Below, in pieces: positions 42,100 to 50,958 of a DNA stretch of 64,000 nt. The DNA comes from Herpetosiphon giganteus (GTDB taxonomy: Bacteria; Chloroflexota; Chloroflexia; Chloroflexales; Herpetosiphonaceae): assembly GCF_016907925.1 (NCBI RefSeq), contig NZ_JAFBCZ010000008.1:62001-126000 (forward strand). Reading direction: 5' to 3'. A program made the position numbers and the translations under genes. Below the pieces are notes generated by a model, which saw only the letters and a list, made by a program, of their open reading frames with translations, had not been told where the DNA came from and did no database searches. Within the stretch, counting starts at the first letter, position 1; each line of letters begins with the position of its first letter.

Positions 42100-42771
42100 A
42101 TGCCAACTGGAACAATTACCCAACTAGAACTGCAACAGCACGATCGCGAACGGGTTAATTTGTATATTGATTCGGTTTTTGCCTTGGGCATTAGCCTACG
42201 CACGCTCGAACACCAAGGACTCTACAAAGGCAAAGTGCTGAGCGAGAGCGATTGGCAAGCAATTGCCCAAGCAGAAGAGGTCGATAAAGCCTATAACGCG
42301 GCCTTAGTTTTTCTAGCGGCTCGCCCACGCTCAAGCCAAGAAATTCGCACGCGCTTGCGCAAACGTGAGTTTCCCGATGAGCATATTGATCTCGCGATTG
42401 AAAAACTCGCCCAAATTGGCTTGGTTAACGATGCCGCTTTTGCCCGCTTTTGGGTCGAAAATCGCCAACAACATCGGCCCCGCGGCGCACGGGCAATTCA
42501 AGCTGAGCTTAGCCAAAAAGGCGTACAGCGCGATTTGATTAGCGAAGTGTTGAACGAGCTAACCGACCAAGATGAAGAGCAAGAACGAGCGTTTAGCGTC
42601 GCTCGCTCAGCGTTGCGGCGCTATGCCAACGAGCCAACCAAAATGGCGTTTAGTCGCAAAATGGCAGGCCTCTTGCAACGCCGTGGCTTTGGCTTCGATA
42701 CGATCAAGCCAGTGCTTGACCAACTTTGGCAGGAGCTTCAAAACAACACCGAACCAGATGAAATCGATTAA
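42100..42771 (+). CDS. recX: RecX regulatory protein
   Basis: A 223-residue modulator that binds the RecA filament and inhibits or destabilises it. It has the three-helix RecX repeats: ALVFLAARPRSSQEIRTRLRKREF, IDLAIEKLAQIGLVNDAAFARFWVENR and RGARAIQAELSQKGVQRDLI, with a fourth in the tail (YANEPTKMAFSRKMAGLLQRRGFGFDTI). GAGGAA lies just before the ATG. Its stop overlaps that of the convergent STAS gene in TTAA. Confidence 0.93.
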   Translation: MPTGTITQLELQQHDRERVNLYIDSVFALGISLRTLEHQGLYKGKVLSESDWQAIAQAEEVDKAYNAALVFLAARPRSSQEIRTRLRKREFPDEHIDLAIEKLAQIGLVNDAAFARFWVENRQQHRPRGARAIQAELSQKGVQRDLISEVLNELTDQDEEQERAFSVARSALRRYANEPTKMAFSRKMAGLLQRRGFGFDTIKPVLDQLWQELQNNTEPDEID

Positions 42772-43910
42772 GCTGCACGGCGCACATGCGGTTGAAGCAG
42801 CGGCTGCATGGCTTTTTCGAGGGTCAGATAATTTTTAACCATGTTGGCTTGCAAATTCAAGTTAACCAATGCGGTTGCTACTTCTGGGCGCAAACCAACC
42901 AAAATGGTTTGTGTGCCCAGCAATTGCGACGCTTTGGCAATTTGGATAATTGTTTCAGCAACAACTTGGTCAATTAATGAAACTCCAGTTATATCTAAAA
43001 TAATGGTATGGGCATTCACCCGCTCAATCGCAGCAAAAATATCGTTTTTCAAAATCTGAGCATGATCAGCAGCCATTTCGCCAATTAATGGAGCAATTAA
43101 TACGCGTGGTAGCACCGGAATAACCGGAATATTGAGTTGCGCAACAATGGTTTGGCTAATTTGCAGTTCATCGAGCGCTTGTTGCAACACATGTTCACGC
43201 TGAGCAATCTCATCTAAAGCTTGCTGTAAACTTTGATTGCGCTCAACAACTTTTTGCTCCAATAAATTATGGAGCTGTTGCGCTTCATCCTCGCGTTGTA
43301 ATAAATTATAAATCTCCATATGCAAGCTGCTACCAAAACGCTCAACTAATAAGGCTTGGCTAATAATCCCAATTGTTAGGGTTACAAAAATAACCCAAAA
43401 ATTTTCAATCATGTCGATTGGTTTTAACATACCAGAATATTCGAGTATTCCAACCAATGCAACAATTGCAATTGAAATTACTGCATTAATAATTAACACT
43501 TTACGATTATTGAGCAAGGCACTGATAATTAACGGAATTGTAAAGAAAACAAAGCCATAGGTGCTATTTTCACGTAAAATCCCAACCACAGCATAGCCAA
43601 GCAATAACATCAATTGAATGCTGCCACTCACAATCATCGCAGCCCGCTGCAAGGCATTATGTCGTACTTGATGCAGCGCAATCGCCGAGCCAATGCCCAT
43701 AATTGAATAGGCTCCCATCGCCATTAACAGTTGTTTGAAGGTATCAGCGGTTGCAGGAAAAATGATGAAAATAAGCGCAGAACTGATCACGCCAAAGACC
43801 GCAATCACAAACAAGCCAAGCACAATCGATTGAAATGCCCGAGCTTGGCGACGCTCGATTAGTTTCTGTTGTGGTAATTGATCAAGCAATATCCGCCAGC
43901 GCTTGCGCAT
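42768..43910 (-). CDS. Membrane protein with C-terminal STAS domain (paralogue 1)
   Basis: A 380-residue protein. Residues 25-195 hold about six membrane helices; a coiled coil follows (about 205-255, with REDEAQQLHNLLEQKVVERNQSLQ). The STAS domain (about 260-375) is of the RsbR/RsbS type: VLPRVLIAPLIGEM, HTIILDITGVSLIDQVVAE, LLGTQTILVGLRPEVATALV. RsbR proteins build the stressosome and are phosphorylated on two threonines. The first (DITGV) is kept; the second, usually LTGIRPE, is Val here. It lies 15 bases after its upstream paralogue and was probably duplicated from it. Confidence 0.85.
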   Translation of the reverse strand: MRKRWRILLDQLPQQKLIERRQARAFQSIVLGLFVIAVFGVISSALIFIIFPATADTFKQLLMAMGAYSIMGIGSAIALHQVRHNALQRAAMIVSGSIQLMLLLGYAVVGILRENSTYGFVFFTIPLIISALLNNRKVLIINAVISIAIVALVGILEYSGMLKPIDMIENFWVIFVTLTIGIISQALLVERFGSSLHMEIYNLLQREDEAQQLHNLLEQKVVERNQSLQQALDEIAQREHVLQQALDELQISQTIVAQLNIPVIPVLPRVLIAPLIGEMAADHAQILKNDIFAAIERVNAHTIILDITGVSLIDQVVAETIIQIAKASQLLGTQTILVGLRPEVATALVNLNLQANMVKNYLTLEKAMQPLLQPHVRRAA

Positions 43911-43925
43911 ACGCCATCCCCTCTG

Positions 43926-45044
43926 CTAATTCAATACAAGTCGTTGATTGATTAACGATAAAACTGCCTGTTCAAGGTTGGCGAAGGTCTGAATCGATGG
44001 AAATTTAATGTGCAATGCAATCAGGGTTTCAGCTACCTCAGGCCGCAAACCGACCAAAATTGTCCGCACCTCAAGAAAGCGCACGGTGCTGGCAATATGC
44101 AGCAGCGCTTTGCCAATAAAAGTATCGATTGTCGTCACACCAGTCACATCAAGAATAATCGTATGCGCTTTGTTGGCTTCGATTGCATTGAAAATATTCT
44201 CGGCAAAGGCCTCAGCCCGTTCGCCAGAAACCTCGCCAACCAAAGGTATAACCAAAATTCGTGGCAAGATTGGCAAGGCTGGCGCACTGAGTTGGGTAAA
44301 AATTTGTTTGCTATGCTGGAGCGTATCGAGGGTATGCTGTAAATCGAGTTCACGCTGTTCAAGCTCATTTAGGGCTTGGCGCAAACTGGTGGTGCGCTCA
44401 TTGACTGATGTTTCAAGCGAATCGCGCAATTGGCTCAGGCTGGCTTCGCGATCCAAGGCTTCGTGCAAGGTCGTGCGGAGATTACTGCCAAAGCGATCAA
44501 CAATCACTGCCTGCAAAATCGTCAGCAAGGTAAAAGTGCCAACAATTGCTTGCAGATTGATTGGTAGCAGCAATTTGCCAGCCCAACCCTGTGATTCGGC
44601 CCAGCCAATCAGCCCAAAAATCGCTAGCGTCAGGCCCGTCATGCCAAAAACCACGCGCCGACTGCTCAACAGGCCAGCTAAAACGATCGGCATCGAAAAT
44701 GAAACCAGCGTAAAGCCCACCGCTTGGGTATACACGCCAATCGCCCAAAACGAAATTAATAACTGAATCAGGAAATTACTTAATAAAATCAAAATAGCTT
44801 GTTGCAAGGCATTGCATCGAATGCGCCAAAGCACCAACAATGAACTCAATCCCAACACGCTATAACAAACGACTGCCAGCAGCAATTGGTTCGCGGAGCC
44901 ACTGGTCAGCGGTGCAGTGACAACCCCAATCGCTGAAACGAGGATAAGCGTCAGCACCATATGTTGAAGCAACAGCGCTTGGCGACGTTCGACCACATGT
45001 TGTTGTGGCAAGCGCTCAAGCCATGCCCGCAATCGCATAACCAT
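43926..45044 (-). CDS. Membrane protein with C-terminal STAS domain (paralogue 2)
   Basis: A 372-residue protein with the same plan as the gene at 42768: six membrane helices (25-190), a coiled coil with SQLRDSLETSVNERTTSLRQALNELEQ and an RsbR-like STAS domain (TIILDVTGVTTIDTFIGKAL, VRTILVGLRPEVAETLI). The first phospho-Thr (DVTGV) is present and the second is again Val. The start is the first ATG of the pair at 45044 and 45038, with AAGGA upstream. The caspase-like gene ends 108 bases upstream on the same strand. Confidence 0.85.
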   Translation of the reverse strand: MVMRLRAWLERLPQQHVVERRQALLLQHMVLTLILVSAIGVVTAPLTSGSANQLLLAVVCYSVLGLSSLLVLWRIRCNALQQAILILLSNFLIQLLISFWAIGVYTQAVGFTLVSFSMPIVLAGLLSSRRVVFGMTGLTLAIFGLIGWAESQGWAGKLLLPINLQAIVGTFTLLTILQAVIVDRFGSNLRTTLHEALDREASLSQLRDSLETSVNERTTSLRQALNELEQRELDLQHTLDTLQHSKQIFTQLSAPALPILPRILVIPLVGEVSGERAEAFAENIFNAIEANKAHTIILDVTGVTTIDTFIGKALLHIASTVRFLEVRTILVGLRPEVAETLIALHIKFPSIQTFANLEQAVLSLINQRLVLN

Positions 45045-45152
45045 AAGGGGGATTCCTTAGCTATCTAGATTCGCTTTATTATCCCCCCACTGTCAACTAT
45101 TTGCCTTGTTGATCGTCCTGTTTTAACCTACCCCGTAGAGGGGATATTCTGG

Positions 45153-45950
45153 TTAATCAACTCGCAGCACAAGTGAGGATTTCATGCCATTCGTCAGCTT
45201 GGGGCTTTGCTGAATTCCGGCCAGATCGCAGGCATCAAGCACTGCCCGATACGCAGCTTTAAACAACGTTTGAATATCATAGCTTTGACCAGCGATCAGC
45301 TGTTCGATCAATTTGGCAGTAAACAACGAATTGGCTTCGCCAGGCAAAATGTAGGATTGTTCGTTATCATTACAGCCCGCCAAAAGCATTTGATTGCTAG
45401 GAATTGAATCGGTAGCAGTGCGCAGCGGAAGTGCAGCCGATCCAATAATCTGCTTAACCAAGCCATTTGGCAATTCTTTGGCGATCAAGCCAGCAGGAGC
45501 CATGGCCGCAGAGCCGCTATGACAGGCATCGAGCACAACCAACAAAGGCGCTTTTTCACGAATTGGCGTAAGCCATGCCCGCAACTCATCATCGCGCACG
45601 AAGCTGCTTAGGCCCTGCTCCAAGCCACATTCATAGGGGCATAAAAATTCTTCTTTGCCATCATCCTCGTCGCCATTATCGTCGTCGAAGCTCGCGCCAT
45701 GGCCTGAATAATAAAAAATCGCCAGATCATCAGCTGTTACTGTTGCGGCTAACCATTCCAACGCAGCCTGAAGGTTTGCTTTGGTTGCCTGCTCATCGAA
45801 CAATACCTGCTCAAGCAGCGGCTGGTTGCTCAAAGGACGCAGCGCATTCAAAAACGCTTGGACATCATCACGGCAGGTTGGCAGGGTCGGAATCGCCGGA
45901 TTGGCATAGACACTGATCCCAACCGCCACCACCAGCAAACGCTTTGGCAT
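45153..45950 (-). CDS. Caspase-family (C14) protease
   Basis: A 265-residue caspase-fold cysteine protease. It begins MPKRLLVVAVGISVYANP, a typical first strand. The catalytic dyad is His84 in IFYYSGHGASF and Cys143 in LLVVLDACHSGSA. An acidic loop, DDDNGDEDDGKEE (about 88-101), follows the His and may bind calcium, as in metacaspases. No partner or regulatory domain is fused. AAGGAG six bases upstream selects the ATG at 45950. It starts 11 bases after the stop of the CHAT protease, so they form an operon. Substrate unknown. Confidence 0.9.
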   Translation of the reverse strand: MPKRLLVVAVGISVYANPAIPTLPTCRDDVQAFLNALRPLSNQPLLEQVLFDEQATKANLQAALEWLAATVTADDLAIFYYSGHGASFDDDNGDEDDGKEEFLCPYECGLEQGLSSFVRDDELRAWLTPIREKAPLLVVLDACHSGSAAMAPAGLIAKELPNGLVKQIIGSAALPLRTATDSIPSNQMLLAGCNDNEQSYILPGEANSLFTAKLIEQLIAGQSYDIQTLFKAAYRAVLDACDLAGIQQSPKLTNGMKSSLVLRVD

Positions 45951-45961
45951 AGTTTGCTCCT

Positions 45962-48900
45962 TCATCGTTTTCCAATTGGAATAAAGGCTGCCCAATAAAA
46001 TGGATGGGCCAAATGCGGCTTATCCGGCTGAGCAATCACTTGTTGCTTAGCCTTAGTCAAAATTGCCGCTTTATCGGCGTTTGGTTGCTGGCCGAGCAAG
46101 CCAAAATAGGCTGTAACCAAATCCATCGTTGCCAAAACATCGACCGACCACAAGCTCGCAATAATCGTGGGACTGCCACGATACATGAGCGCCTGAGTGA
46201 GGCTATTGATGCCCTCGCCGCGCGAAATTAAGCCCAAGCCAGCTTGGCAGGCTGCCAAAAAAATCAATTCGGTCTGCGGCAACTGTAGTTCAAATAGATC
46301 ATGAATCGCCAAAAAGCCATCTTGGCCGCTGTGATCGCTGCTGCCATCGGGGGCCGCCAAATTAAAGACCAAGCCCGAAAATTGGGGATATTTATCGTTG
46401 AACACGCCATGGCCAGCAAAAATAATGTAGCGCATAGTCTGCTCGTTTAAAATGCGTTTGAAATTAGCTTCGTTCGATTGCAATTCGGCCTGTGCTGGGG
46501 TGTGATCTGCTTGCCACGCAGTGAGTTGCACGGTGGGGCCATGCTGCGCTAATTCTGCCAAAACAGTGCTGAGCACGCTGGTTTGGCTCAAATCGCTATA
46601 ACTCAGCATCAATTCTTGGGCATAGATATGGCCAGGATAAACACTTGGCACATTGGTCTGATAATTAATATTGTAAACACCCAAGGCTACGTGTTCTGCC
46701 TGCGGCGTTGTTTGTTGCTGAAGTTGCAGCCAAAGGCTAATCGACTGAGCGCTGGAAATGCTGGCGTGATTCAGCCAATAAAATGGCAGCAAATCGTGGC
46801 AAATTTGCTCTGGCGTGGCCTGATCAGGCGCAGTTTGGCGATAGGTCGCCGGATCAAGTGGCTGCTGATTGGCAGCAAGCGGTTCATCGAAAAACAGCAA
46901 ATCAAAGGGCAAGTAATATAAAATCCCATCAGGAATGATGATAATGTGCTTGCCCCGCAGTTGCTCCTTCAACCCCGCCGCCCAAAGCTCAGCAAACAAT
47001 AATTGAACCACCGCGCGATTGGCGCGCACAAACTCTGGCCAACGCGCCGCGCCACGCTGCACATACCAAATCAAACGAGCCACCGCATACTCAATTTTGG
47101 CGCGGCATGCTAGCTCAAACGCCTGCAATTGCTGACTATCTGCGTACAACAGATAGCTCCATTCGCTGCCAATTGTAAAGCTCAAAATAACCGTGTTTGG
47201 GCGTTGAGCCAAGGCGGTTTGGACAGCTGGCCAGTTTGCTAATTGCGGTTGTAAGCCGTGATCTTGGTTTTGCAAGGCTTGGGCAATGCTGCTTTGCAAG
47301 GCTTGCCAAGCGCCAAAAGCAGCTTGTTGGTCGGCCAATAATGCCACGAGATCAGCGCTGGCAGGTTGTTGCAACGCCAAACGAATTGCCATGCTGCGGG
47401 CGGAAATCGCTGCGGCGAGGGCTGCTCGTTGTTGTTTCAATTCGGGGCTAAGTTCACGCTCACGCTCAATCTGGCTGGCTGCCAATAATTGTTCAAAGCC
47501 ATGGCCACGCAAACTTTCGCTCAGTTCTAGCAAGCGGCGACGGTCGGTTGCATGCTTGAAATGAAAATGCATAGCGCATTCAAAGACCTGAAATTTATCT
47601 TGTAGCGCTGCCATTTGCCAATCACTTTGCTGCACATTTTCACGCAGCAGTTGCACCAATTCGCAAGCATTGGCATAGGCTTGCTGGGCCTTGGGCAGGT
47701 CGTTGAGCGCTTCATGGGCGCGGGCAATCGTCAACCAAACTCGCCAACCAGCCTCAGGAATCAAAATTCCACGCATTTGGGCTTGTTTGAGCGCTGCTTG
47801 CGGCTTTAGCTCGCTCAGGCCAAGCGCTTGCAAGCAATTTTGGGCTGTGCTCAAGGCAGCGGTGGGCTGGCCCAGCAACAATTGTACTTCGCTGATGTTG
47901 GCAAATAATCCTGCTTGCAAGACCCGATCAGGAGTTGTTTGATTGAGCGTCGCCAGTGCCTTTTGCAATAAATGCAGAGCTTGTTGATAAAGCTGATCTG
48001 CTGGCCCCAAATCGTGCAAACTGCCCGCTAAATTGGGCGAGAACCAGCCAGCCTCACGCACTAAATTGGCTTGCAACCAAGCGATATTAGCCTGATTGGC
48101 AAGAATCAAACTGCGATAGGAAACCAAATTTGGGGCTTGCTCGGCCAAAGCCAAGGCTTCTGCATAAGCTTGTTCTGCTTGGGCCAAGGCTTGACGATGT
48201 TTGGTATATTTCAGCCCCAACCATGCTTCTGGCGGTTGATCGCCACGCAACAACACTTGCTCAGTTTTGTCGTAGCTAATGTAGCCGCGATGATCGAGCA
48301 AATTATTGCGCACAAAAGCAATATTGCCGCGATTAATTGCCGCCAAACATTGGCCTTCGTGGTCGTCGGCTGCCAAAAGATGGGCAATGCGCGCATAGCA
48401 ACGCTCAGCAGCAGTATAATCGCCAAGCATCATCAAACTATTGCCTTGCCATTGCGCCAACAAGCCAACAAAAGCCCGATTTTGGCGCGAATGGCTGGCA
48501 AAGTGTTGCTCGTCGAGCAAGGCTTGGCTAGCGGCAATGCTTGAGCCAAAGCAGTGTTGGGCCAATTCAGGCTGGCCTAGCCCAAAAGCCAATTCGCCAC
48601 GCAAGGCTTCAAGCAACAAACCCAACGGAGCAGGGCAATGCGGAATCTGGCTGAGCAGCTGTTGGGCTTGCGTTGGCTGAAATACTTGTTGTGCTGTCCA
48701 TGCGAGCCACCATTGCAGCACCGCTTGCTGGCGCTTGCCAAACTGAGCATCAACCACAAGCCCTGCCAGCAAGGCTTGCCAAACCAATTTAAGTTCATTC
48801 AGGGTCTGCGTTGCGGGGGTAGCAAAGCGCAAGATATTTGGCATTGGCACATTGACTGCTGGCAAAGGCAGGCCGCGCTGCTGGCTAGGCGTTGGGCCAG

Positions 48901-49693
48901 CATCATCATCAGGCCCAGCTTCAGCAGGCGTTAAGGCCATAATTGCTTGGTGTAGCGCTTGGAGCAAGGCACGATCAGGCGGGTTGTGTAGTTGGTAAGC
49001 CAGCAAAACCGCCTCAAGCATCGCGCGTAAATCATCGATTAAGGCTGGTTTTAATTGATTGTCGAGCCATGGCACAAGCTCGTGCGCAGCTTGGGGATGG
49101 GCTGCCCGCGCCCGATTAAATGTTTCAATAATGCCAGCATAATCAGCTAATTGGCGTTGCAGCAAAATCAAGCTCATCGCGGCTTCAAGCTCGTTATTGC
49201 TGGCCAAGGCTTGGATAATCGGCTGCCAAAGCGCTATAATGTTGCCAAAAAGCGCGTGCGCATGCAGCTCGCAGGCATACAATTCGGCCTCATCGGCCAC
49301 GCACATCGTCCAGCTTGCAGAGCGCGGATCGTTGCTGACGCTGCTACAAAACGCGCGAATTGCTTGGATTTGTTTGGCGCTTAGGGTTGGTTGGTTGGCT
49401 TGCCAAAGGTTGGGGAGTTGCAGAGGCAGGTTGGTTTGCTGCTGATTCAATTCGCAATACTGCTGAACATTGCCATGCCACAAGGCGAGTTGCTTGGCGC
49501 TAGCAATAATGCATTGGCTAAACCCCTGATCAGGCCAGCAATTGGCCTCAGCTTGCTGCTGCAACCCAGCAAATACTGCTGGAATCCAATCGAATACCAC
49601 CAGTTGCAAGGCTTGATGCAGCGCTTCGCCTTGTTGGTATTGCGCGGTTAAGCGTTGTTTTGCCAGCCATTCGGTCAACCAGACTGTGGTCAT
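45962..49693 (-). CDS. TPR-CHAT protease
   Basis: A 1243-residue protein. The first 900 residues are alpha-helical with several tetratricopeptide repeats, clear in the middle (CLAAINRGNIAFVRN, LILANQANIAWLQAN, AGLFANISEVQLLLGQPTAALSTAQNCL, GWRVWLTIARAHEALNDLPKAQQAYANACEL). The C-terminal CHAT domain (caspase HetF associated with TPRs) has His about 1095 in YIIFAGHGVFND and Cys about 1149 in LIFLAACQAGLG, then the conserved LTQALMYRGSPTIIASLWSVD. CHAT proteases include separase-like and Craspase/gasdermin-cleaving enzymes. GGAGG five bases upstream selects the ATG at 49693 over 49723. No gRAMP/Cas7-11, gasdermin or nucleic-acid sensor gene is adjacent. Confidence 0.92.
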   Translation of the reverse strand: MTTVWLTEWLAKQRLTAQYQQGEALHQALQLVVFDWIPAVFAGLQQQAEANCWPDQGFSQCIIASAKQLALWHGNVQQYCELNQQQTNLPLQLPNLWQANQPTLSAKQIQAIRAFCSSVSNDPRSASWTMCVADEAELYACELHAHALFGNIIALWQPIIQALASNNELEAAMSLILLQRQLADYAGIIETFNRARAAHPQAAHELVPWLDNQLKPALIDDLRAMLEAVLLAYQLHNPPDRALLQALHQAIMALTPAEAGPDDDAGPTPSQQRGLPLPAVNVPMPNILRFATPATQTLNELKLVWQALLAGLVVDAQFGKRQQAVLQWWLAWTAQQVFQPTQAQQLLSQIPHCPAPLGLLLEALRGELAFGLGQPELAQHCFGSSIAASQALLDEQHFASHSRQNRAFVGLLAQWQGNSLMMLGDYTAAERCYARIAHLLAADDHEGQCLAAINRGNIAFVRNNLLDHRGYISYDKTEQVLLRGDQPPEAWLGLKYTKHRQALAQAEQAYAEALALAEQAPNLVSYRSLILANQANIAWLQANLVREAGWFSPNLAGSLHDLGPADQLYQQALHLLQKALATLNQTTPDRVLQAGLFANISEVQLLLGQPTAALSTAQNCLQALGLSELKPQAALKQAQMRGILIPEAGWRVWLTIARAHEALNDLPKAQQAYANACELVQLLRENVQQSDWQMAALQDKFQVFECAMHFHFKHATDRRRLLELSESLRGHGFEQLLAASQIERERELSPELKQQRAALAAAISARSMAIRLALQQPASADLVALLADQQAAFGAWQALQSSIAQALQNQDHGLQPQLANWPAVQTALAQRPNTVILSFTIGSEWSYLLYADSQQLQAFELACRAKIEYAVARLIWYVQRGAARWPEFVRANRAVVQLLFAELWAAGLKEQLRGKHIIIIPDGILYYLPFDLLFFDEPLAANQQPLDPATYRQTAPDQATPEQICHDLLPFYWLNHASISSAQSISLWLQLQQQTTPQAEHVALGVYNINYQTNVPSVYPGHIYAQELMLSYSDLSQTSVLSTVLAELAQHGPTVQLTAWQADHTPAQAELQSNEANFKRILNEQTMRYIIFAGHGVFNDKYPQFSGLVFNLAAPDGSSDHSGQDGFLAIHDLFELQLPQTELIFLAACQAGLGLISRGEGINSLTQALMYRGSPTIIASLWSVDVLATMDLVTAYFGLLGQQPNADKAAILTKAKQQVIAQPDKPHLAHPFYWAAFIPIGKR

Positions 49694-49812
49694 CCCAGCC
49701 TCCAAGCGCAGTGTTGGCAGCATTTTAGCAAATTGCTGCGCAAAATACGAGCAACCATGCCAAATTTTGGCTTTTTGTGGCTCTAGCTGTTCAATGTGCC
49801 AAGGAGCAATCT

Positions 49813-50649
49813 ATGCAACAGTTGTGGCAACATTGGCAGCAATTGGCCAGCTGGCAACGCTGGCTAGCGCGAATCATTGGCCTTAGTGGCATCGTCGTGG
49901 CTTGGCAAGCATGGCTTTATCGTGGCGATGGCAATCTGCACCTATTTGTGCCCGCCATTGCTGGCAATAGCGTGTTGGTTCAAACACCCAACGCCAAGCA
50001 AATTGTGATCGATGGCAGCACCGATCCAATCGCGATTATGGCGCTTATGGGCGAGCGCTTGCCTTTTTGGCAACGCCAGATTGATCTTTTAGTGTTGACC
50101 AGCAGTGAGCCAGAGCAATTAAGCGGCGCTTTGGCCTTGGCACGTAGTTATCAGATTGGCATCTTGCTGGCCCCGCCGTTCGAGCATGATCCTGTGGCTG
50201 CTGAGCTAGCCCAAGCCTTGAAGCAGCAACAGAGCCGCGTGGTCTTTATCGAAGCGGGCCAAACATTAACGATCGACCATGTGCAGGTAACGGTTTTGGC
50301 AGCGCCCCAAGCCCAATCGCAAGCAATTATCGAGCTTAGTTTTGGCTCATGGCACAGCTTGATTGGCCTGAATCCAAGCGATCGGGTTGCCAAGCAATTA
50401 CCTTTGGATAAACTCAAATGCCAAGTTTTAATTTGGCCATGGTCGCGGGGCGATGATCGGTTGCTGGCCAATAGCTGTGGCGCGCAAGCCCTAATTTATA
50501 GCCAAGGCCAGCCAGAACAACAAGATCCGCGCAGCTATTTTGCCCGTGGCAGCCAAGAGCGGCGCTTACTCCACGAAAAGCTCGATGGCTCAGTTCACAT
50601 TCGCAGCGATGGCCAACGCATGTGGTTGCAAACCCATGCCCAACCTTAA
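49813..50649 (+). CDS. ComEC-like metallo-beta-lactamase-fold protein without metal site
   Basis: A 278-residue protein with one N-terminal membrane helix (WLARIIGLSGIVVAWQAWL) and an outer domain resembling the C-terminal domain of ComEC (GDGNLHLFVPAIAGNSVLVQTPNAKQIVIDGS, then LPFWQRQIDLLVLTSSEPEQLSGALALARSYQ). The place of the HxHxDH metal motif reads SSEPEQ, so it should not bind metal. AAGGAG seven bases upstream selects the ATG at 49813. It is divergent from the TPR-CHAT gene with 119 bp between. A non-catalytic binding or structural role is inferred. Confidence 0.65.
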   Translation: MQQLWQHWQQLASWQRWLARIIGLSGIVVAWQAWLYRGDGNLHLFVPAIAGNSVLVQTPNAKQIVIDGSTDPIAIMALMGERLPFWQRQIDLLVLTSSEPEQLSGALALARSYQIGILLAPPFEHDPVAAELAQALKQQQSRVVFIEAGQTLTIDHVQVTVLAAPQAQSQAIIELSFGSWHSLIGLNPSDRVAKQLPLDKLKCQVLIWPWSRGDDRLLANSCGAQALIYSQGQPEQQDPRSYFARGSQERRLLHEKLDGSVHIRSDGQRMWLQTHAQP

Positions 50650-50691
50650 CATGCTAAAATAAGCCGCATCGCCACACCCAAGGAGGCCAGT

Positions 50692-50958
50692 ATGCGCAAA
50701 AAAGTTGCCCGTGCTTTATTCAACGATCAGCAGGATGAGACAACAAGCCCACCCAAGCTGATTCGTTTTGGCAGCACGCAAAGCGATCAATGTAGTTTAT
50801 ATGATGCTCCCGCCAAATTCGAGCAATGTTTGGGCTGCGAGTATCGGCGTGGCAGCAAAGGGCTGGGTATTCTCTGCGGCCATCGCTTTGGGCTTGATCC
50901 CACTTATATCAACGGCATTTTGACCCAAATTCGTGATGATGAGATTCTGCCGCTCTAA
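50692..50958 (+). CDS. Small Cys-rich protein of unknown function
   Basis: An 88-residue protein with a basic start and a compact pattern CSLYDAPAKFEQCLGCEYRRGSKGLGILCGH. The three Cys (one CxxC) and a CGH suggest one zinc site. AAGGAGG precedes the ATG. It begins 42 bases after the previous gene, so the two may be cotranscribed. I do not recognise the family. Confidence 0.7.
   Translation: MRKKVARALFNDQQDETTSPPKLIRFGSTQSDQCSLYDAPAKFEQCLGCEYRRGSKGLGILCGHRFGLDPTYINGILTQIRDDEILPL

Follow-up and report, generated by a model that had tools for sequence, protein, structure and literature searches.

In a type III-B CRISPR system described in Science in 2024, the next protease after SAVED-CHAT is reportedly the caspase-fold PCaspase. 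According to PMC11229360, a SAVED-CHAT protease starts a proteolytic cascade in type III CRISPR; its SAVED domain binds a cyclic nucleotide, and the cascade depends on this domain. Craspase, of type III-E CRISPR, consists of the TPR-CHAT protein Csx29 with Cas7-11 (PMC9729208, PMC10028731). The nucleases of the canu caspase-nuclease systems were reported from defence islands (PMC12799240). The EACC1-caspase systems comprise two genes, a caspase at the 3' side and a one-helix membrane protein at the 5' side (PMC7159879).

The window, i.e. the whole stretch of DNA that was analysed, comprises 64,000 nucleotides of Herpetosiphon giganteus. Members of the genus Herpetosiphon are multicellular filamentous bacteria. 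The window contains a gene for a large CHAT protease and, directly behind it, a gene for a small caspase (Table 1). Both reading frames lie where a sequence-only reading of the same DNA had placed them, with identical coordinates and the same gap of 11 bases.

Table 1. Features of the CHAT-caspase locus and its borders (positions within the window)
Feature	Position	Strand	Remarks
Large CHAT protease	45962..49693	-	1243 aa; weak TPR signal at the N-terminus, CHAT peptidase domain at the C-terminus
Stand-alone metacaspase-type (C14) peptidase	45153..45950	-	265 aa; ATG at 45950
Gap between CHAT stop and caspase start	45951..45961	-	11 bases; AGGAG (ribosome-binding) overlaps the CHAT stop codon
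Region upstream of the pair	49694..49776	-	common to the divergent gene at 49777; holds the conserved GGAGG before the ATG at 49693
Gap between caspase and first STAS gene	45045..45152	-	108 bases; TTGACA block and two CCCC/GGGG inverted repeats
Tandem STAS genes	42768..45044	-	
Divergent MBL-like gene	49777..50649	+	

The locus resembles SAVED-CHAT/PCaspase in that a CHAT gene stands beside a caspase gene, the two being separated by 11-12 bases in all six Herpetosiphon species. It differs in the CHAT protein, which according to Pfam carries a TPR-like and not a SAVED part, and in its location on the core chromosome with no CRISPR adjoining. A SAVED domain was found in the CHAT protein neither with Pfam nor with PADLOC. 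The pair thus looks like a non-CRISPR version of the known theme of a CHAT-caspase relay, and the idea of a cascade is not new; the earlier suggestion of a possibly new arrangement was too strong, since PMC11229360 already describes a SAVED-CHAT proteolytic cascade in type III CRISPR. In Csx29 a TPR-like part precedes the CHAT domain, as it may in the Herpetosiphon protein with its weak TPR signal. However, Cas7-11, Csx30, Csx31 and RpoE were not seen near the pair, where the neighbour is a caspase. No CRISPR/Cas, SAVED, sigma-factor or inhibitor genes adjoin the pair, which agrees with the earlier statement that the known partners of such proteases, here the SAVED and Cas partners, are absent.

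Like the EACC1-caspase systems, the locus is a two-gene unit with a caspase as 3' gene, and caspase_w_EACC1 is the best NCBIfam match of the caspase. The 5' gene, in contrast, encodes a CHAT protease, and the match (61.4 bits) lies below the cut-off of 140. As in canu, the caspase gene lies in the vicinity of genes for an MBL-fold-like and a TPR-like protein, whereas the MBL-fold pro-nuclease of canu is located downstream of the caspase (PMC12799240); in Herpetosiphon the downstream genes are STAS genes and the MBL-like gene is divergent. The MBL-like protein has TSSEPEQ or TSNEPQQ at the position of the usual metal-binding motif in 6/6 species and is, because of this replacement, probably not a metal enzyme. 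A canu identity, which this neighbour had suggested, was rejected because the metal-binding motif is missing.

The start of the CHAT gene at 49693, also chosen in the sequence-only reading, is preferred over a 1253-aa reading because the GGAGG just 5' of this ATG is kept in the alignment of all six species. An AGGAG that overlaps the preceding stop codon, here that of CHAT, is typical of co-translated genes. The two proteins are probably made together, co-transcription being suggested by the operon-like arrangement. The CHAT domain (Pfam PF12770) covers residues 905-1252 in 1253-aa numbering and scored 142 bits against a gathering score of 24 (E 3.4e-41). The label TPR-CHAT that had been given to the protein stands in its CHAT part, while the TPR part is carried by sub-threshold Pfam scores: TPR_2 reached 23.6 bits (cut-off 27) and recurred below the cut-off in all six CHAT orthologues, and several other TPR families scored weakly among them. 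A sequence search of solved structures gave no meaningful match of the CHAT part to any solved chain. Structure models from four-sequence alignments were unusable for the CHAT protein (pLDDT 40.5) and for the caspase (pLDDT 51.7).

The caspase domain was recognized as Pfam PF00656 (E 7.8e-20; 72 bits, cut-off 21.4). The His-Cys pairs, previously noted as intact in both proteins, proved invariant in 6/6 species, i.e. H1105/C1159 of the CHAT protein ('FAGHG', 'LAACQAG'; 1253-aa numbering) and H84/C143 of the caspase ('YSGHG', 'DACHSG'). Among solved structures the caspase is closest to metacaspases, namely Metacaspase-1, MCA2 and GSU0716, the last being an uncharacterised bacterial protein. In the alignment C26/D29 and D195 fall on the metacaspase 'GC..D' positions, and the invariant D29 and D195 are candidates for an acidic pocket. 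By comparison with MCA2, these positions presumably line the basic S1 pocket for Arg or Lys, and the caspase is accordingly predicted to prefer substrates with these residues. The segment that separates the two halves of the caspase (around 171-185) is variable and its basic residues are not conserved; R177 is missing in 3/6 species. The invariant basic residues nearby are K158 and K166, which are candidate processing sites if a basic-specific protease processes the caspase there. The CHAT protease may prefer residues other than basic ones.

The pair is adjacent in 6/6 available Herpetosiphon genomes, the named matches being H. llansteffanensis, H. geysericola and H. aurantiacus. Both genes are under purifying selection (pairwise dN/dS 0.117-0.133 in CHAT, 0.126-0.158 in the caspase); the values of the flanking STAS and VWA genes are somewhat lower (0.041-0.102). 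The locus has one fixed place on the core chromosome and is not part of a defence island. Gene order there is the same in each of the six species, running recA, recX, two STAS genes, the pair, the MBL-like gene and, further on, a VWA gene. The three nearest genomes also have an acyltransferase-like gene in this neighbourhood, and within the window uvrA stands at the far side. The entire 17-kb neighbourhood is syntenic within Herpetosiphon, and joint retention within the genus is weak, non-independent evidence for a partnership because the surroundings are equally conserved. In sister genera of the same family recA-recX has an unrelated context, so no empty site is definable. Both domain families are also present singly elsewhere in the same genome. 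Several caspase-fold genes form a second cluster there (L063, contig 33, 28000-47900), encoded on one strand throughout; besides an Hsp70 and a propeller protein it includes a 2232-aa CHAT-WD40 protein, a CHAT protein of 415 aa and a caspase-hydrolase protein of 1197 aa.

A whole-length CHAT profile matched 6 of 400 genomes of the phylum, all of them Herpetosiphon. The full CHAT alignment compared with 84,980 species genomes likewise found Herpetosiphon only; distant relatives could be missed in this search, because its two peptide patterns lie before the CHAT domain. As to co-occurrence in related genomes, the result is divided. Outside the genus, the genomes searched yielded no orthologues of the pair, and the stretches read around the closest CHAT relatives there (L109, L110) contain no caspase. 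On the other hand, non-orthologous CHAT and caspase genes recur as neighbours in Chloroflexota.

About 66 caspase loci outside the genus, i.e. the strong matches of the class and the best matches of the phylum, were checked for an adjacent CHAT gene. CHAT was the immediate neighbour at 6 of 66 loci, against 0.19 expected from 221 CHAT genes in 169.7 Mb at an assumed density of about 0.9 gene per kb; the Poisson P of about 6e-8 is optimistic because the independence of the loci is incomplete and genes of both families tend to be grouped in signalling islands. The adjacent CHAT gene is on the same strand at L102, L103, L107 and L120 and on the opposite strand at L174 and L175. At L101 the CHAT gene lies at a distance of two genes on the same strand, and at L157 about 0.8 kb off. 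A same-strand CHAT within 2 kb occurred at 3/11 stand-alone caspases versus 2/56 longer caspase proteins (Fisher P 0.03, optimistic for the same reason).

The His and Cys motifs are retained in both partners at L101, L102, L103 and L107. The CHAT proteins of L101 and L102 start with an alpha/beta hydrolase-like part (a weak match in L102), the partner at L107 has 381 aa, and that at L103 has CHAT first and TPR later. L108 has a similar caspase-plus-hydrolase look; its contig ends before any CHAT domain could appear. At L101:2474-8457 and L102:7953-12415 this hydrolase-like CHAT protein comes after a stand-alone caspase. One of the two genes between caspase and CHAT at L101 appears M23-type peptidase-like by eye. 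In all, the combination was found in about five non-orthologous settings. As these loci are not orthologous to the Herpetosiphon pair, the combination arose several times, and this recurrent pairing is stronger support for a partnership than co-retention within the genus.

The sequence-only reading had proposed two caspase-fold proteases in one operon, acting as a cascade. What stood is the conserved operon-like unit with invariant dyads, together with the recurrence of such neighbours far above chance; the direction of a relay, its trigger and its outcome are guessed, and protease activity is predicted. Our preferred reading, held with slightly less than even confidence, is that of a two-gene operon fixed in the Herpetosiphon core chromosome, in which CHAT senses a signal and then either activates the caspase or operates alongside it during a stress or death response. 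Sensing of an internal signal or a partner protein would fall to the N-terminal part of CHAT, which would switch the protease on. The active CHAT protease would cleave the small caspase or act in parallel with it. The caspase would be the executioner, cutting other proteins after Arg or Lys, and this cutting would drive a stress, developmental or cell-death response. By analogy with the known cascade, CHAT and caspase possibly act in sequence; a relay fits only slightly better than parallel action of the two.

It is somewhat unlikely that both proteases are co-transcribed and use separate substrates in one response, with no mutual cutting. The operon-like spacing, which shows joint expression at most, would suit such an arrangement, as would the variable caspase linker with its lack of a conserved basic site and a CHAT protein in which Pfam does not find the SAVED domain needed in the precedent cascade. 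That precisely these two folds of protease pair repeatedly, while the gene contexts differ in other respects, nevertheless suggests more than chance.

An anti-phage system, in which CHAT would recognise infection and the caspase would then kill or arrest the infected cell, is improbable. CHAT and caspase proteases are effectors in several known defence systems (PMC10952713, PMC12799240), and the caspase of the pair matches PADLOC's caspase model, but the flanking proteins have no convincing PADLOC match and the pair occupies the same housekeeping neighbourhood in 6/6 species, where nothing points to gain, loss or mobility. This fixed housekeeping location and the absence of defence matches nearby make a dedicated role in phage defence less likely. 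Nor did the viral contigs scanned contain relatives, and plasmid relatives of the CHAT part cover at most 17% of it among the matches listed; none covers most of the CHAT protein. Three plasmid caspase loci were inspected: that from Nostoc lies close to a MoxR ATPase, another is flanked by mostly unnamed genes, and the third is unannotated.

The 108-base gap and its edges have a mean column identity of 92% in the six-species alignment, although dS between the two clades is about 1, near saturation. One of the two inverted repeats in the gap encloses the ribosome-binding site. The core of the conserved block is present in one copy in each of two Herpetosiphon genomes searched, and Rfam gave no match in 42500-50900. 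The block probably serves the STAS genes themselves as leader or promoter and would thereby set the 3' border of the pair. A single regulatory operon of CHAT, caspase, STAS and STAS, with the STAS proteins reporting membrane or stress signals to the proteases, is very improbable: the four genes keep one strand and one order in 6/6 species and both STAS proteins have a STAS domain above the Pfam cut-off, but the strongly conserved leader-like block before the first STAS gene suggests a border and makes a four-gene operon less likely. The tandem STAS proteins, kept in 6/6 species, are alike in length and layout and are probably an old duplication.

The preferred reading of a CHAT protease that senses and a caspase that executes could be extended to a general two-protease relay of Chloroflexota. 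In such a relay the sensor would be swapped (TPR-like, alpha/beta hydrolase, others), the CHAT-to-caspase step would be kept, and the system would be independent of CRISPR and serve physiology or programmed death; this extension is possible but unlikely. Two-step cascades of caspase-fold proteases are a hallmark of animal cell death. If the preferred reading is true, a non-CRISPR CHAT-caspase relay is fixed in a multicellular filamentous bacterium, and such relays would also be part of bacterial core physiology.
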